Below, one piece after another: positions 1,598 to 7,505 of a stretch of DNA of 34,657 nucleotides. The stretch comes from Deltaproteobacteria bacterium (GTDB lineage: Bacteria > Desulfobacterota > Syntrophobacteria > Syntrophobacterales > Thermodesulforhabdaceae): positions 1 through 34,657 of the forward strand of contig JAFDGW010000027.1 of assembly GCA_019309115.1 (NCBI GenBank). Reading direction: 5' to 3'. The translations under genes and the position numbers were made by a program. Every line of letters starts with the position of its first letter. The first letter of the stretch is position 1. The notes below the pieces were generated by a model, which saw only the letters and a program-made list of their open reading frames with translations, did not search any database and had not been told where the DNA came from.

Positions 1598-3025
1598 CTA
1601 CCTGGGCTTCCACTGCATAATCCGGTCTATTACCTTCTCGAACTCCATTGCCCTTGAAGCTTTAAACAAAAAAATTGCCCCGGCAATCCAATTCTTCTGC
1701 AACCACTGGGCGATCATACTGTGGTCTATCTTTCCGCCATCACCAGCATCAAAATGATAAGATAATGTCGCACACCCCTTTTGAAATTCCTCAAATATGG
1801 CTTTTGCTTCCCTCCCTGCCGTAACCACCATATGGGGATTCTTCGAAGCAGCAATTTTGCCAATTTTCCTATGTAGGCTCTCCGAATCTCGCCCAAGTTC
1901 TTTCATGTCACCCAGGACTAAAACCAGGGGCCTTTTGTGCTTTTCGGCAAGAAATGCCACCGTTTCAATAGCGCGGGTCATTGAACCGGGATTTGCATTG
2001 TAACAGTCATCGAAGATAATCGTACCGTCGGATAATTCCATCTTTTGCATCCTGTGTTCAACGAGAGTCCACGCTCTTAGAGCTTCTACCGCATCATCGA
2101 GTGAAACGCCGAGCTGGAGTCCGACGGCAACGGCACAAAGAGCATTCATAACATAATGTTCGCCAAAAGCCCGAAGATTGCAAGGAACAACCTTTTCACC
2201 GAAACGTACGCTAAAGGTCATGCCGTCGAGGGATAAATCAATTAGTCCTTCCGCATGAACATCTGCATTAACCGATCTGCCAAAGGTGATCCTATTTTTG
2301 GTCAGTCCGGCGGCATATTTCGCCAGCAGAGGGTCATCCAAGTTGATTACGGCGACACCGTCATTAGGAAGTTTTTGCCATAATTTCGTCTTTTCCCGGA
2401 GCACCCCTTCCAGAGAATCAAAGCCTTCCAGGTGAGCTGGCTGAATGTTGGTGATAACTCCAACGGTTGGTTCTACAACGTCCACAAGCTGGTCCATTTC
2501 GCCAAAGTGGTTTATGCCCAACTCAAGCACCACCGCATCCACATCATCGGGCATCTGAAAAATGGACAGGGACACGCCTATGTCGTTGTTCCAATTGGCA
2601 GGCGTCTTAAAAACCCTGTACTTGCGCCCCAGCACCAGAGCGATCATCTCTTTCGTTGACGTCTTACCATTCGATCCAGTAACACCTATCATCGGGCCGG
2701 GAAATTTACGCCTTCTGAAGCGGGCCAGATCTGCAAGCGCCTTTCTGGTATCTTCAACATAGACGAAATAAACACCTGGCACAGTGTGTATGGAATCAGT
2801 AATATCACTTCGACTGTACACAATGGCACCGGCCCCCTTTTTTATTGCCTCCATGATGAAATCGTGACCGTCAAACCGCTCCCCCTTTATAGCAACAAAA
2901 ACCGATCCGGGCTCAAGCTTTCTAGTATCCGTTTCGATAAAAGAAAAGAGGATTTCGTCTGAGTGCCTCCTACCCATTAAAATGCCATCGATGGCAACTA
3001 ATACATCGTCAAGAGACCAATTCAT
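1598..3025 (-). CDS. murF: UDP-N-acetylmuramoyl-tripeptide--D-alanyl-D-alanine ligase
   Basis: MurF joins D-Ala-D-Ala to the UDP-MurNAc tripeptide, the last cytoplasmic step before MraY. The 475-residue protein has the N-terminal Mur-ligase domain with TDTRK near residue 32, the P-loop GSNGKTSTKE at 117-126, the ELGINHFGEMD segment, and the DDCYNANPGSM motif followed by LVLGDMKELG in the C-terminal domain. The ATG at 3025 follows a purine-rich GGGGGAAGG. It heads the minus-strand murF-murD pair. No murE lies upstream; the next gene that way is divergent, so this piece of the division and cell-wall cluster is detached from its usual partners. Confidence 0.96.
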   Translation of the reverse strand: MNWSLDDVLVAIDGILMGRRHSDEILFSFIETDTRKLEPGSVFVAIKGERFDGHDFIMEAIKKGAGAIVYSRSDITDSIHTVPGVYFVYVEDTRKALADLARFRRRKFPGPMIGVTGSNGKTSTKEMIALVLGRKYRVFKTPANWNNDIGVSLSIFQMPDDVDAVVLELGINHFGEMDQLVDVVEPTVGVITNIQPAHLEGFDSLEGVLREKTKLWQKLPNDGVAVINLDDPLLAKYAAGLTKNRITFGRSVNADVHAEGLIDLSLDGMTFSVRFGEKVVPCNLRAFGEHYVMNALCAVAVGLQLGVSLDDAVEALRAWTLVEHRMQKMELSDGTIIFDDCYNANPGSMTRAIETVAFLAEKHKRPLVLVLGDMKELGRDSESLHRKIGKIAASKNPHMVVTAGREAKAIFEEFQKGCATLSYHFDAGDGGKIDHSMIAQWLQKNWIAGAIFLFKASRAMEFEKVIDRIMQWKPR

Positions 3026-3391
3026 CCTTCCCCCGGAAATGTTCTTTTACATGCAAAGGCTGGCTATTACCGTTCATTCCGATCAGTAACATCAACAATT
3101 TAGCAATGGGAAGATGAAAAAGTCCAGAAAAACTAAAAAATTGGAAAAAGGTCGGGTATTCTGAACACTATCCGACCCTGGGTTGAAAAGGAGGTCCACA
3201 CAAATCCCCACAAAAACATTTAACACATCCGAAGAGGAAAATAGCTTTTATGCGAAGGGCAAAAATTGTTAAGATTACCATACAGATGAATGCGACAGGC
3301 AAAGGGGCCTAAATGCTCGCGTGTGTTTGCAACGGTGTTGTTAAAGGCAACTTTTGATCAATTCCAATTTCACCATCACGGGGAGCATAAC
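3026..3391. other. intergenic region between divergent murF and DUF554 gene
   Basis: About 365 bp without a supportable gene. It should contain divergent promoters, but I see no convincing -35/-10 pair on either strand. The notable element is an interrupted palindrome at 3150-3177. A plus frame can be extended upstream of the DUF554 start to 3290, but that stretch does not look like family sequence. A 16-codon Lys-rich frame near 3106-3166 is not credible. Confidence 0.6.
3150..3177. repeat. interrupted palindrome in murF upstream region
   Basis: GGTCGG (3150-3155) and CCGACC (3172-3177) form a perfect 6-bp dyad. A further TA/TA pair follows after one mismatch, giving a 28-nt imperfect palindrome with a roughly 10-nt centre. 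It lies about 125 bp upstream of murF and about 215 bp upstream of the DUF554 gene. It could be an operator or an RNA hairpin. No T-tract follows on either strand. Confidence 0.45.
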
Positions 3392-4096
3392 ATGCTGGGC
3401 ACAATCATCAATGTCGGAGCAGTATCGACAGGAAGTCTCATAGGTATAGCATTGGGAAATCGCCTGAAAGAAAATGTTCGGAACATGGTTTTTGACTGTA
3501 TAGGTCTGATGACGCTTTTGATAGGTTTCCAGATGGCTTTTAAGACCAAGAATGTTTTGCTAATTCTTGGATCTCTTCTTGTTGGAGGCATAGTTGGTGA
3601 GTACTTTGATATTGAGGAAAAATTAAGGGGGATTTCGAGTAAAATCCAGGCAAGCTTTCATATGGAAGATCATAGCTATTTCGTAGATGGATTTGTGACA
3701 GCCAGTGTGTTATTTTGTGTGGGACCTATGGCCATACTGGGATCTATTCAGGACGGCCTAACTGGAGACTTCACAATCCTTGCCATAAAATCCGCACTTG
3801 ATGGATTCGCATCCATAGGACTTGCCACAGCTTTCGGGTGGGGTGTTTTCTTCTCAATATTGTCCGTTGCCCTTTTCCAAGGCAGCATTACCTGCACCGC
3901 TTCGTGGCTTGATCGTTTTATGAACGACCAGATGATCGCGGAAATGACAGCTGTTGGAGGGTTACTCATAGTTGCTATTGGAATTCGGTTGCTCCAGATA
4001 AAAGACATTAAGGTGGCGAACCTGCTGCCGGCACTTTTTTTTGCACCGATTGCTGTCAGGACCATTTCAGCAATAAGACACCTGATAGCCAATTAA
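3392..4096 (+). CDS. DUF554 family membrane protein
   Basis: A 234-residue hydrophobic protein of the DUF554 (YdfK/YqgA-type) family, expected in the cytoplasmic membrane; its function is not established. It opens with the characteristic MLGTIINVGAVSTGSLIG and then N-R-L-K-E. It has around six to seven membrane-spanning stretches and the conserved central VGPMAILGSIQDGL, which is followed by a segment containing KSALDGFASI. The ATG at 3392 is preceded by GGGGAG with 6-nt spacing and matches the family N-terminus. An in-frame codon at 3290 would add 34 residues unlike the family. It is followed 24 nt later by the release-factor-like gene on the same strand and may share its transcript. Confidence 0.88.
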   Translation: MLGTIINVGAVSTGSLIGIALGNRLKENVRNMVFDCIGLMTLLIGFQMAFKTKNVLLILGSLLVGGIVGEYFDIEEKLRGISSKIQASFHMEDHSYFVDGFVTASVLFCVGPMAILGSIQDGLTGDFTILAIKSALDGFASIGLATAFGWGVFFSILSVALFQGSITCTASWLDRFMNDQMIAEMTAVGGLLIVAIGIRLLQIKDIKVANLLPALFFAPIAVRTISAIRHLIAN

Positions 4097-4120
4097 AAAC
4101 GCAAACAGGGGAGGTAGAAA

Positions 4121-5287
4121 ATGAAAATTTTCGAACCGCAAACACTCCAGGCATTAAAGGAACACTGCGCCAGAGACGGTTCGCCTGTCCTTAGTGTTTA
4201 CCTGAACATTGATCCGACGCTGCCGGTTAACGCCCGAGGTGGTTACAAAACCATGCTTGGCAACATGTTAGAGAAAATCGAAAGGTCTGTCGAGAAGGAC
4301 GACCAGCTCATGAAACACTTTTCTGAGGATGCCGAATGGGTAAAGTCCCGGATCGATGTGTTAATACCTCGAGGGAAAACTTACGTCGCATTCTGTGACG
4401 TATCAGAAGATTTTTACTTTGAAGAAGAAATACCGATTCGTTTGCCCAATGCGATTTTCTACGAAGACACACCTTACGTTCGACCCATAATGGAAGCAAT
4501 GGATGAATATGAACGCTACGGCGTGGTTCTGCTGGACAGGGAAAAGGCCAGATTTTTCGTTGTCATGTTCGGTCAAATTGAAGAAATCGAAGATGCTATA
4601 AATATTCCCCCCGTACGGCATAGGAAAACGGCCGGCACCGATCACATGCGCTCCCAGATGGTCTTTCAGCGTCGCTCTGAAACGTGGAACACCTGGTTTT
4701 TGAAAGAAATTGGAGAACGCTTGCGAGATCTTGTGACCGAATATAATACTCCGCACCTGATCCTTATGGGACCTCATGAGGTAACGTCCGAATTCTACCG
4801 TCTTTTGCCAAAGGCCCTGCAAGAAAAGGTCATAGATCGCTTAAGAATGGCTGTAAAAGCCAAGGCACAAGAAGTTCTGGAAGCCATTGCTCCTGTAATT
4901 GAGTGTAGGGAACGTTTTATTGAAGACCAAACAGTCGAAGACTTGGTAACGGCGGCTCAAAAAAGTGGAGAAACCATGGAAAAGGCCCTGCTGGGTTTGA
5001 ATCCCGTACTCAGTGCAATCAACCAAGGAAGAGTGTATATGCTTGTTTACTCGTCCGGATTTACCACCAACGGATACTACTGCCCCAAGTGCGAGGTTAT
5101 TCTCGACCATGTCCCCGAAAACGAACTCTGTCCTTACTGTTCTTCATCTCTCGAAAGAACGGAGGACCTCGTGTGGCTGGCTTCTGAAAAGGTGCTCGCC
5201 TCTGGTGGGAAGGTAGAAGAGGTGAAATCCGAACAAGCCAAGGTAAAACTCGATGTAAACGGCCATATAGGGGCCTTTCTACGCTAG
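4121..5287 (+). CDS. bacterial aeRF1-type release-factor-like protein (baeRF/VLRF1-like)
   Basis: A 388-residue protein resembling the bacterial homologues of archaeal/eukaryotic release factor 1 (baeRF family, related to the Vms1-like VLRF1 domain). Visible features are an N-terminal domain containing PVLSVYLNIDP, a central HMRSQ followed by FQRR (Gln179 sits where eRF1 carries the GGQ loop and Vms1-like proteins keep a single Gln), a third domain with the LILMGPHEV strand, and a C-terminal zinc ribbon CPKC (321-324) and CPYC (337-340). The family is thought to act on stalled ribosomes or peptidyl-tRNA, but the bacterial members are barely characterised. The start has GGGAGG 8-12 nt upstream. 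The archease gene follows after 14 nt. The family is fairly sure; the activity is inference. Confidence 0.8.
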   Translation: MKIFEPQTLQALKEHCARDGSPVLSVYLNIDPTLPVNARGGYKTMLGNMLEKIERSVEKDDQLMKHFSEDAEWVKSRIDVLIPRGKTYVAFCDVSEDFYFEEEIPIRLPNAIFYEDTPYVRPIMEAMDEYERYGVVLLDREKARFFVVMFGQIEEIEDAINIPPVRHRKTAGTDHMRSQMVFQRRSETWNTWFLKEIGERLRDLVTEYNTPHLILMGPHEVTSEFYRLLPKALQEKVIDRLRMAVKAKAQEVLEAIAPVIECRERFIEDQTVEDLVTAAQKSGETMEKALLGLNPVLSAINQGRVYMLVYSSGFTTNGYYCPKCEVILDHVPENELCPYCSSSLERTEDLVWLASEKVLASGGKVEEVKSEQAKVKLDVNGHIGAFLR

Positions 5288-5301
5288 AGCAGGAGAATAC
5301 C

Positions 5302-5733
5302 GTGCCTTATCAGTACCTCGATATAGTAACGGCCGACGAAGCGTTTAGGGCGTGGGGCAGAACGAAAGAAGAACTATTCATATCCGCCGCCCACGCCCTC
5401 ACAGGCGTTATGGTAGAAAAGCCTGAAAAGTTGAGACCACTGATTAGGAAAGAATTGATCCTCGAAGAAGAATCGCTTGAATTTCTTCTATTTGCGTTTT
5501 TGAAAGAAATCCTGTTCCTTAAAGATGCAGAAAGAGTCCTGCTGATTCCCGAAAGAGTGAACATTGCTAAAAGTAGCCAATCATCGTGGAAGCTCAAAGC
5601 GGAACTTTACGGAGAAAACCTCGACGACCTGGGTGAAAATCTCCTGGTGGATGTTAAGGCCATAACATTGCATGAATTTTCTGTAGAAAGAAAAGACGAC
5701 TTGTGGCAAGCTACCGTCGTCGTTGATGTTTAG
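5302..5733 (+). CDS. archease family protein
   Basis: A 143-residue protein matching archease (SHS2-like fold), the small factor that in archaea and eukaryotes stimulates the RNA ligase RtcB by promoting its guanylylation. The N-terminal YLDIVTADEAFRAWG corresponds to the conserved Ala-Asp and aromatic-Gly segment. The C-terminal VDVKAITLHEFSVER and the closing beta strand ATVVVDV are hallmarks of the family. The start is GTG with AGGAG 6 nt upstream. It sits 14 nt after the release-factor-like gene and is probably cotranscribed. No rtcB is present in the window, so its ligase partner must be elsewhere or it works with something else. Confidence 0.85.
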   Translation: MPYQYLDIVTADEAFRAWGRTKEELFISAAHALTGVMVEKPEKLRPLIRKELILEEESLEFLLFAFLKEILFLKDAERVLLIPERVNIAKSSQSSWKLKAELYGENLDDLGENLLVDVKAITLHEFSVERKDDLWQATVVVDV

Positions 5734-5758
5734 TTTAATTCAACGAGGAGCATCAAAA

Positions 5759-6238
5759 ATGTTTACAGAAGCAGATATCGATAGGGAAATGAACCAGCTA
5801 AAAATTATATGGATTGCAATGTTGGGATCTATCGGAATTTACGTATTCGTGGCCATAAATTTTGGTGGAGAAATAAAGGCGCCGCTAGATCCATCTCTTT
5901 TAAAAACCATACGGCTTGTTCTTTATGCATTGTCAATACTTACGGTAGTGATCACCAAGCTAATCCGTAGCAAGATCATTGCCTCAATATCGGTTGGATC
6001 CGAAAGAACTGGGGTTCCACGGGAAATGATTGGCCAGGTTTTGCAAAAGTATCGGGTTGCGAATATTGTTTCCTTTGCGCTCTGTGAAACCATAGCAATT
6101 TATGGACTCCTGTTATTCCTTATGGGTGGGAGTGCAACCGACTTGTACATACTGATTGCCCTCTCGGCCCTATCCATGTTTCTTTTGCGCCCTCGGAGAG
6201 AGGAACTGGAGGAACTCATTGGGGATGGATGGACATAA
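5759..6238 (+). CDS. small four-helix membrane protein, unknown function
   Basis: A 159-residue integral membrane protein that I do not recognise. It has four hydrophobic stretches, roughly residues 14-35, 45-66, 98-120 and 122-140, an Arg/Lys-rich loop after the second, and an acidic C-terminus (RPRREELEEL). The ATG at 5759 has CGAGGAG 8 nt upstream; an in-frame ATG at 5723 lacks a ribosome site and would overlap the archease gene. It is 25 nt downstream of the archease gene and likely ends this operon. The function cannot be deduced from sequence alone. Confidence 0.75.
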   Translation: MFTEADIDREMNQLKIIWIAMLGSIGIYVFVAINFGGEIKAPLDPSLLKTIRLVLYALSILTVVITKLIRSKIIASISVGSERTGVPREMIGQVLQKYRVANIVSFALCETIAIYGLLLFLMGGSATDLYILIALSALSMFLLRPRREELEELIGDGWT

Positions 6239-6396
6239 AACAAGACATATGATCGGCATAAAACTATCTGAAATCTGAAACTGCCATCTTAAACCGGGCT
6301 TCCTTATTTTCTCTGATTGCATAATATGCTGGCAAAAGTTCTTCAAAAACAGCCATTTCCTTTCAATAGATTTTTCGGATACGTTCTGCTATTACC

Positions 6397-6425
6397 TTGA
6401 CCGTAAGATGGGATGACGTTATATT
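6397..6425 (+). promoter_or_regulatory. sigma-70-type promoter of the arsR operon
   Basis: TTGACC at 6397-6402, a 17-bp spacer, then TATATT at 6420-6425, close to the consensus. It lies 24 bp upstream of the arsR start codon, so the leader is very short. The A/T dyad at 6421-6432 overlaps the -10 box and predicted start point. Confidence 0.7.
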
Positions 6426-6432
6426 GCTATAT
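6421..6432. promoter_or_regulatory. candidate ArsR operator
   Basis: The short A/T dyad ATATTGCTATAT overlaps the -10 element and transcription start of the arsR promoter. ArsR-family repressors commonly bind imperfect A/T dyads at such positions and autoregulate. The dyad is short, so this is a candidate only. Confidence 0.4.
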
Positions 6433-6448
6433 GTGCATGGAGAGAATT

Positions 6449-6832
6449 ATGAAGGCTTTTATTAGAGTAATGAAGGCCCTTTCGGATCCAAACAGAGTCA
6501 AAATTATCAAGATGTTAAGCAGAAGGCAACTCTGTGTTTGCGAATTACAGGAGGCGTTAGGTATTGCCCAACCTACGGTGTCAAAACACCTAAGGATCTT
6601 GGAAGAAGCCGGGTTGGTTGATAAAGAAAAAGAAGGTCTTTGGATTAATTACAAACTCGCAGATGGTAGCAATAGCCCCTATGCTGCTACAATGCTGGGA
6701 AATTTGAAACACTGGCTCGATGATGACCCTGAAATAAAAGAATTATTAAACAAAGTTCCACATCTGGACAGGAACGCAATCTGTGCACGAAATAAATCAA
6801 ACCAACGGGGAGGGAAAAACAATGGAAATTAA
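6449..6832 (+). CDS. ArsR-family metal/metalloid-responsive repressor
   Basis: A 127-residue winged-helix regulator. It has the classic ALSDPNRVKIIKML start, the metal-site helix QLCVCELQEAL with Cys29 and Cys31 (the CxC motif of arsenic-type ArsR sensors), the recognition helix QPTVSKHLRILEEAGLV and the wing sequence KEGLWINYKL. The ATG at 6449 has GGAGA 5 nt upstream; upstream in-frame starts at 6413 and 6437 are less likely. It lies immediately behind a strong promoter with an overlapping dyad and overlaps the thioredoxin-like gene by 11 nt. It likely represses its own operon and is released by As(III)/Sb(III) or a thiophilic metal. The ligand is inferred from the CxC motif. Confidence 0.92.
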   Translation: MKAFIRVMKALSDPNRVKIIKMLSRRQLCVCELQEALGIAQPTVSKHLRILEEAGLVDKEKEGLWINYKLADGSNSPYAATMLGNLKHWLDDDPEIKELLNKVPHLDRNAICARNKSNQRGGKNNGN

Positions 6833-7061
6833 AGTTCTGGGACCGGGTTGTAAGCGGTGCCAGCAAACAGAGCAGGTTGTTAGCCAAGCACTGCAAGAGC
6901 TTGGAATTACTGCTAATTTGGATCACGTAAAAGACCCCATCGAAATCTCAAATTACGGGGTTTTCGGAACTCCTGCGGTTGTTGTTAATGGTGAAGTAAA
7001 ATGTGTTGGCAAGGTTCCGTCAAAAGATGAAGTAAAAAAGTGGTTGCAACAGGCAAAATAA
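6822..7061 (+). CDS. thioredoxin-like CxxC small redox protein
   Basis: A 79-residue minimal thioredoxin-fold protein of the type annotated as redox-active disulfide or thioredoxin family (MTH895-like). It has the active site GPGCKRCQQTEQ (Cys10, Cys13), the cis-proline segment GTPAVVVNG, and a final helix SKDEVKKWL. The start at 6822 has GGGGAGGG 8-14 nt upstream and lies inside the last codons of arsR, which suggests translational coupling. In many anaerobes such proteins sit beside ArsR regulators and a COG0701-type permease; no permease is present here. The likely role is thiol-disulfide exchange or metal/metalloid handling, inferred from context. Confidence 0.88.
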   Translation: MEIKVLGPGCKRCQQTEQVVSQALQELGITANLDHVKDPIEISNYGVFGTPAVVVNGEVKCVGKVPSKDEVKKWLQQAK

Positions 7062-7079
7062 AAACGGGAGGTTACATTC

Positions 7080-7505
7080 ATGAGTGAACAATGCTGTGAA
7101 ACTCCCTCTGGCTCCAGTGGAAATGTTATGATTTTGGCCTGCTCGGGAGGGTCCAACGTAGGTCAACTTTCAAACCAAGCCGCCGTTGAACTTACTAAGG
7201 AAGGGTTTGGCAAAATGTTTTGCCTGGCAGGTATCGGAGCCCATCTTTCTGGCTTTGTTCAATCGGCGAAGGATGTTCCGGCAATGATTGCCATTGACGG
7301 CTGTTCCATAGGATGCGCAAAGGCAACGCTAGAGCACGCCGGGGTACCCCTTAAGGCATATCTTGTGATAACAGACCTTGGTATTGAAAAGAACAAAAAC
7401 TTTGATTTGGACAGTGAAACCATAGAGAAGGTCAAGGCCGCCGTAAAAGAAGCATGCGAAGGTTTGCCGGTAGAAGGTGGGTCGAGTGTTGCCTGTTGTT
7501 CCTAA
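7080..7505 (+). CDS. DGC-domain putative zinc-binding protein
   Basis: A 141-residue protein of the DGC family (putative zinc-binding, PF08859-like). It has ILACSGGSNVGQLSNQAAVEL near residue 18, MFCLAGIGAH near residue 46 and the family-defining IDGCSIGCAK. These supply the four conserved cysteines, with additional Cys pairs at both ends (QCC near the N-terminus, ACCS at the C-terminus). The start has CGGGAGG 8-14 nt upstream and lies 18 nt after the thioredoxin-like gene, so it belongs to the ArsR-controlled operon. The biochemical function is unknown; the cysteine content and context point to soft-metal binding or trafficking. Confidence 0.85.
   Translation: MSEQCCETPSGSSGNVMILACSGGSNVGQLSNQAAVELTKEGFGKMFCLAGIGAHLSGFVQSAKDVPAMIAIDGCSIGCAKATLEHAGVPLKAYLVITDLGIEKNKNFDLDSETIEKVKAAVKEACEGLPVEGGSSVACCS

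Follow-up and report, generated by a model that had tools for sequence, protein, structure and literature searches.

Why is an archease, the activator of the RNA ligase RtcB, encoded directly behind a gene for a release-factor-like protein? The locus that raises this question lies in the family Thermodesulforhabdaceae (assembly GCA_019309115.1, contig JAFDGW010000027.1), and the whole stretch of DNA that was analyzed, here called the window, comprises 34,657 nucleotides. A sequence-only reading had described a baeRF/VLRF1-like protein, an archease, and a four-helix membrane protein as one operon and had seen in them a combined ribosome-rescue and RNA-repair unit, possibly linked to the membrane, with a Vms1-type cutter as its release factor. 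The three open reading frames and the 14-nt gap between the factor and the archease gene were confirmed (Table 1).

Table 1. Genes of the locus, with positions in the window.
Gene	Position	Strand	Details
DUF554 gene	3392-4096	+	longest ORF from 3290; Pfam DUF554 E 5.4e-80
baeRF10 factor gene	4121-5287	+	388 aa; Pfam and NCBIfam profiles, PDB sequence matches
Archease gene	5302-5733	+	GTG start, 143 aa; Pfam E 4.6e-35
Small helical membrane protein gene	5759-6238	+	ORF 5723-6238 from TTG

For the membrane protein gene, ATG 5759 is a more likely start than TTG 5723; it follows the archease stop codon by 25 nt and has a Shine-Dalgarno-like GAGGAG sequence. The DUF554 gene, which was absent from the earlier account of the operon, ends 24 nt before the baeRF10 start on the same strand and probably heads an operon with it; murF and murD, on its 5' side, are oppositely oriented. 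A scan of positions 3000-6700 yielded 7 promoter-like sites versus 5.8 expected from shuffled sequences and 3 terminator-like sites versus 4.3 expected, with the plus-strand terminator-like sites falling within the DUF554 and baeRF10 coding regions. One transcript spanning 3392-6238 is plausible. The best promoter-like site of the scan (10/12) was found at 6397-6425, on the 3' side of the membrane protein gene. Behind the unit, positions 6413-7505 encode an ArsR-type regulator, an MTH895/ArsE-type thioredoxin-like protein, and a DGC-domain protein, which together with this promoter-like site probably form a separate metal or redox operon.

The archease is genuine, as had been proposed. It scored 121.3 bits against the Pfam profile, above the cut-off of 25, and matched the P. 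horikoshii archease 4n2p (E 9e-16). Residues necessary for RtcB activation have been defined in P. horikoshii (Desai et al., 2014), and the archease has counterparts of Asp12, Lys117, Asp141, and of the last residue (the Asp of TAD; C-terminal VDV). The conserved His9 is replaced; the rtcB-linked archeases from family f3 that we aligned lack it as well. The ligase gene itself lies outside the window, as the sequence-only reading had remarked, and was located in a single copy on another contig of the same genome (C66). An archease occurs in 50 of the 55 genomes of the class, and rtcB was matched in every one of these 50, in a few cases partially. A prfH match over the cut-off was not found in the window genome. 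Most likely, the archease still serves RtcB.

As a side aspect, the rtcB gene beside archease in family f5 contained one in-frame TGA in all 10 genomes that had an rtcB match (12 searched). In the two frames that we read (L073:5484-6938 and L074:5520-6974), this TGA replaces the Cys of GGVGYDIN-C-GVRL, which is present as Cys in the RtcB of the window genome and which we take to be the metal-binding cysteine of RtcB. Judged from the reading frames, the TGA looks like a candidate selenocysteine codon at this position.

The place of the archease gene is what distinguishes the family. In 41 of the 45 archease-bearing class genomes outside it, the archease and rtcB genes share a strand and are no more than 1.5 kb apart (with about 0.9-1.1 kb between the two matches in a number of f3 genomes), and the 4 exceptions had the two genes on different contigs. 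Within the family, this linkage was found in none of five genomes; instead, archease directly followed baeRF10 in all five, which belong to four genera. None of the 16 other class genomes carrying both genes had archease near baeRF10, and baeRF10 was near rtcB in none of the 22 class genomes carrying that combination. We extended the survey to a phylum sample of 297 genomes, in which baeRF10 was matched in 38 genomes outside the class, with 3 of these matches below the cut-off. Twenty of these outside-class regions, mostly covering about 5 kb to either side, were searched with a home-made archease profile, which recovered 7 of 7 control loci, and with one RtcB query, and neither archease nor RtcB was found near baeRF10. 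In the other 18 genomes, archease was on a different contig in 13 and gave no match in 5, where different contigs are not absolute proof of separation, as the assemblies are often fragmented. The pair is therefore not limited to the window genome, but the notion of a widespread unit is not supported, as the adjacency is found in one family only across the class and the phylum sample.

Comparison of the gene junctions delimited the conserved part. The baeRF10/archease junction of the window was present in 4 of 4 other family genomes (with the archease of G004 placed by separate searches) and the DUF554/baeRF10 junction in 2 of 4, whereas the murF/DUF554 and archease/membrane protein gene junctions were found in none; with the window included, a DUF554 homologue lies directly 5' of baeRF10 in 3 of the 5 genomes. 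The gaps between baeRF10 and archease range from 14 to 53 nt in the family, while the flanking genes on both sides change. The conserved core is two genes, baeRF10 followed by archease. In a tree built from 38 of the 50 archeases of the class, the five family archeases formed one clade (100/98) within a larger clade mostly from f3. As they are monophyletic, one relocation event suffices, and the simplest history is one move in the family ancestor followed by vertical descent. The best reading of these data is a lineage-specific partner swap that has placed the RtcB activator beside a putative Balon-type A-site factor.

Such a swap could quite possibly be neutral, with archease having moved behind baeRF10 once and having been retained there, and with both genes working independently; we regard this as nearly as likely as a functional coupling. 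The restriction of the adjacency to one family, its absence at the 20 loci from other phylum families, and the monophyly of the family archeases, for which a single event is enough, are all in agreement with a neutral order. In addition, a set of genes behind archease (in G004 MazG, CvpA, and pseudouridine synthase) is common to the other four family genomes and absent from this place in the window, and as these clusters have been kept as well, part of the conservation of the pair may be plain synteny. Less well explained by neutrality is that the pair was kept so tightly spaced across four genera while both flanks changed.

The membrane protein gene is, in the window, a hitch-hiker or local addition. 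Of the 54 other class genomes, 16 encode distant relatives of its product (E 5e-11 to 3e-4). The 16 include the four other family genomes, where the relative and archease are on separate contigs, which speaks against the proposed membrane link of the factor and the archease. The helical nature of the protein was recovered in a single-sequence model, but with five helices in place of the four described before and with a weak mean pLDDT of 63. Its Pfam ATP-synt_C match (25.9 bits, cut-off 24 bits) extends over 25 residues, and the likeness to ATP synthase subunit c is probably a chance likeness of one helix.

As to the factor, it scored 127.2 bits (E 7.6e-37) against PF18854 (baeRF_family10), above the gathering score of 27.1. 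The best NCBIfam model was that of ribosome hibernation factors of the MSMEG_1130 family (E 1.8e-31, residues 18-388), followed by aRF1 and then by two other hibernation-factor families, although the 109.5 bits reached with the MSMEG_1130 model are far under its equivalog cut-off of 480 bits. All 17 members of alignment A1 matched the same four NCBIfam models (E 0.01). Among solved structures, the single sequence matched the MSMEG_1130 chain 8v9j (E 9e-15), and the factor profile matched this chain over positions 1-388 (E 2.2e-27), followed by aRF1/eRF1 and pelota. These sequence matches secure the eRF1-like relation of the factor, which had been named beforehand as a point on which the proposal could fail; a structure model from a two-sequence alignment had a mean pLDDT of 37. 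Of the former assignment as baeRF/VLRF1-like, the baeRF part thus stands as family 10, but the VLRF1 part does not, as no VLRF1/Vms1 model matched the factor at E limits of 1 for Pfam and 0.1 for NCBIfam. Weak acVLRF1 matches were seen with 1 of the 17 A1 members in Pfam and with 2 of the 17 in NCBIfam. These profile results argue against VLRF1/Vms1 membership; a distant relative on a Deinococcus plasmid (25% identity, E 5e-7), annotated as 'VLRF1 family aeRF1-type release factor', points the other way. The closest named relative, from a Syntrophobacterales metagenome assembly (75% identity), was the sole locus in the named-genome scan. The plasmid search gave 2 matches with the factor and none with the archease, and the phage search with the factor gave none. 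From its sequence relatives, the likeliest role of the factor would be that of a Balon-type A-site factor and not of a Vms1-type cutter.

Active release is the less likely role, and we consider it rather improbable that the factor frees peptides by Gln179-dependent hydrolysis or Vms1-style tRNA cutting, after which archease and RtcB would mend the RNA. The loop on which this depends was analyzed in an alignment of 43 members, comprising 5 of the window's family, 18 from the rest of the class, and 20 from outside the class that were drawn from the 38 genomes with a baeRF10 match. In the factor, the loop reads G172-TDHMRSQ179; compared with the GGxSQ loop reported for VLRF1 families by Burroughs and Aravind (2019, PMC6514570), the GG pair is lost, SQ is kept, and the spacing is changed. 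The 'single Gln' of the sequence-only reading is real and conserved, being found in 29 of the 43 aligned relatives; among the 20 rows from the three families of the order (f1-f3), 19 have it. This conservation favors active release. A second Gln is nearby at position 183, and seven rows have Asp at position 179. Ten of the 43 relatives carry a GGW[SA]Q loop that resembles the GGxSQ loop; the subtype of the window (G-T/S-D-H-M-R-S-Q, with small variations) is three residues longer. Active release is further favored by the Deinococcus annotation, by the precedent of PrfH-RtcB, in which a release factor is paired with RNA ligation, and by the well-conserved Gln of family 10, whose members are named as possibly active peptidyl hydrolases in PMC6514570. 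On the other side are the missing VLRF1 model match, the scarcity of acVLRF1 matches in A1, and the lost GG pair. Moreover, in a single-sequence alignment, M-R-E-Q of MSMEG_1130 is placed opposite M-R-S-Q of the factor, and MSMEG_1130 and Rv2629 bind the A site without GGQ and NIKS motifs, as stated in PMC10901736; the 388-aa translation of the factor contains neither of these strings. Because a protein that binds the A site has the Gln at the aligned position, and yet hydrolase activity has been suggested for family 10, the Gln is not decisive between hibernation and hydrolysis. Vms1-type tRNA cutting is weakly supported, and with the near whole-length best matches in NCBIfam and PDB going to MSMEG_1130/Balon, a Vms1/VLRF1-type cutter is not the reading best supported for the factor.

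The zinc ribbon described before was found as CxxC...CxxC with C321, C324, C337, and C340, and this cysteine set is complete in 40 of the 43 relatives, the three without it being those of family f4. Balon carries a hairpin insert in its C-terminal domain (PMC10901736), which we take to be in the same place as the ribbon; the factor has the zinc ribbon there and not the insert.

The genes around baeRF10 relatives give some indication of a stress context. For Balon homologues, PMC10901736 describes stress-gene neighbors, with RaiA as the most frequent and RtcB among the others. A relative on an Azospirillum plasmid (26% identity) has a sigma factor, DnaJ, CbpM, and a universal stress protein as neighbors, and in G106, from another family of the phylum, baeRF10 lies 21 nt behind a gene that joins S30AE (HPF/RaiA-type) and sigma-70 region 4 domains. 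This gene (L107:4221-5210) is an unusual fusion of ribosome-hibernation and sigma-like domains. Other baeRF10 neighbors were Cys-tRNA(Pro) deacylase, a bifunctional nuclease, rhodanese, and NusG at 130 nt. An S30AE domain was present in 1 of 20 Pfam-scanned neighborhoods, two of which are at rtcB and several of which gave no match at all, and in 1 of 10 in a subset of ten relatives. In the window genome itself, a single S30AE match was obtained, and it is not on the contig of the window.

An RNase Z-like metallo-beta-lactamase gene lies 5' of baeRF10 in two genomes that belong to one genus (L058:5336-6109 and L059:9103-9879), with the L058 copy scoring below the RNase Z cut-off. ELAC1 is the tRNA-repair partner for ANKZF1, and this gene was considered for such a role. 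It was discarded as a conserved component, because in the other three family genomes its closest homologues are off the baeRF10 contig and because homologues abound throughout the class, with matches in 50 of its 55 genomes.

Among known systems, Balon, MSMEG_1130, and Rv2629 are similar to the factor in being aeRF1-type, in the near end-to-end match, and in the lack of GGQ; both MSMEG_1130 and the factor show an M-R-x-Q loop in the single-sequence alignment, and a stress-gene context around some relatives is shared with Balon. Unlike the Balon-type proteins, the factor is under the equivalog cut-off, has kept a zinc ribbon, and has archease and not RaiA as its partner, and its ribosome binding is putative. 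It agrees with baeRF family 10 in Pfam score and conserved loop Gln and differs by its longer loop from the GGW[SA]Q subtype in other phylum families. With Vms1/ANKZF1 of the VLRF1 clade it has the aeRF1 superfamily and the SQ in common, but neither a model match nor the GG. The archease, in turn, has the activation residues and a same-genome RtcB as in the RtcB-archease operon of Desai et al. (2014), but stands behind baeRF10 and apart from rtcB in all five family genomes. The PrfH-RtcB2 repair operon likewise links a release-factor-like gene to RNA-ligase function; there, however, PrfH is a bacterial-type release factor and rtcB is adjacent. That the pair is an independently evolved aeRF1-type counterpart of PrfH-RtcB within one family, in which the factor, with its unusual Gln loop, would open ribosomes stalled by cut RNA and archease would direct resealing by RtcB, seems to us improbable.

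We tentatively prefer a coupling of ribosome shut-down and RNA repair through the baeRF10-archease pair. According to this reading, archease left rtcB in the ancestor of the family and settled behind baeRF10. Under stress, the baeRF10 protein would bind to the A site of the ribosome as Balon and MSMEG_1130 do and would hold or protect idle or stalled ribosomes, while the archease, presumably produced from the same transcript, would speed guanylylation of the RtcB encoded elsewhere, which could then seal broken tRNA or rRNA during the translation pause. The MSMEG_1130/8v9j matches, the stress-type neighbors, the presence of the pair in 5 of 5 genomes, the changed neighbor of archease, the baeRF10/archease junction as the one junction kept in all 4 other family genomes, the single clade of the family archeases, and the universal RtcB among archease-bearing genomes of the class are in favor of this coupling, and the missed equivalog cut-off, the retained zinc ribbon and Gln loop, and the adjacency in one family count against it, as do the hydrolase suggestion, the VLRF1 annotation in Deinococcus, the rarity of S30AE neighbors, the shared genes behind archease that point to synteny, and the 0 of 22 genomes with baeRF10 near rtcB. 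From the combined rescue and repair unit first proposed, a close pair of an aeRF1-superfamily gene and archease with rtcB in the genome remains, without the Vms1 cutter, the membrane link, and the wide spread, and co-expression of shut-down or rescue with RNA repair is possible but unproven.

We saw no baeRF10-archease pair in the published literature, subscription papers and preprints aside; the word archease does not occur in the main text of PMC6514570 or PMC10901736, nor 'release factor' in that of PMC3973293. As a product of neutral shuffling, the arrangement would be a minor curiosity of gene order. If it is functional, ribosome shut-down would be tied to RNA repair in this family through the activator of a ligase and not through the ligase itself. 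The Balon work (PMC10901736) describes homologues bound in the A site, and Burroughs and Aravind (2019, PMC6514570) suggest possible activity. A functional pair would also offer a system in which to ask if baeRF10 proteins with a conserved loop Gln act as hibernation factors or as hydrolases.
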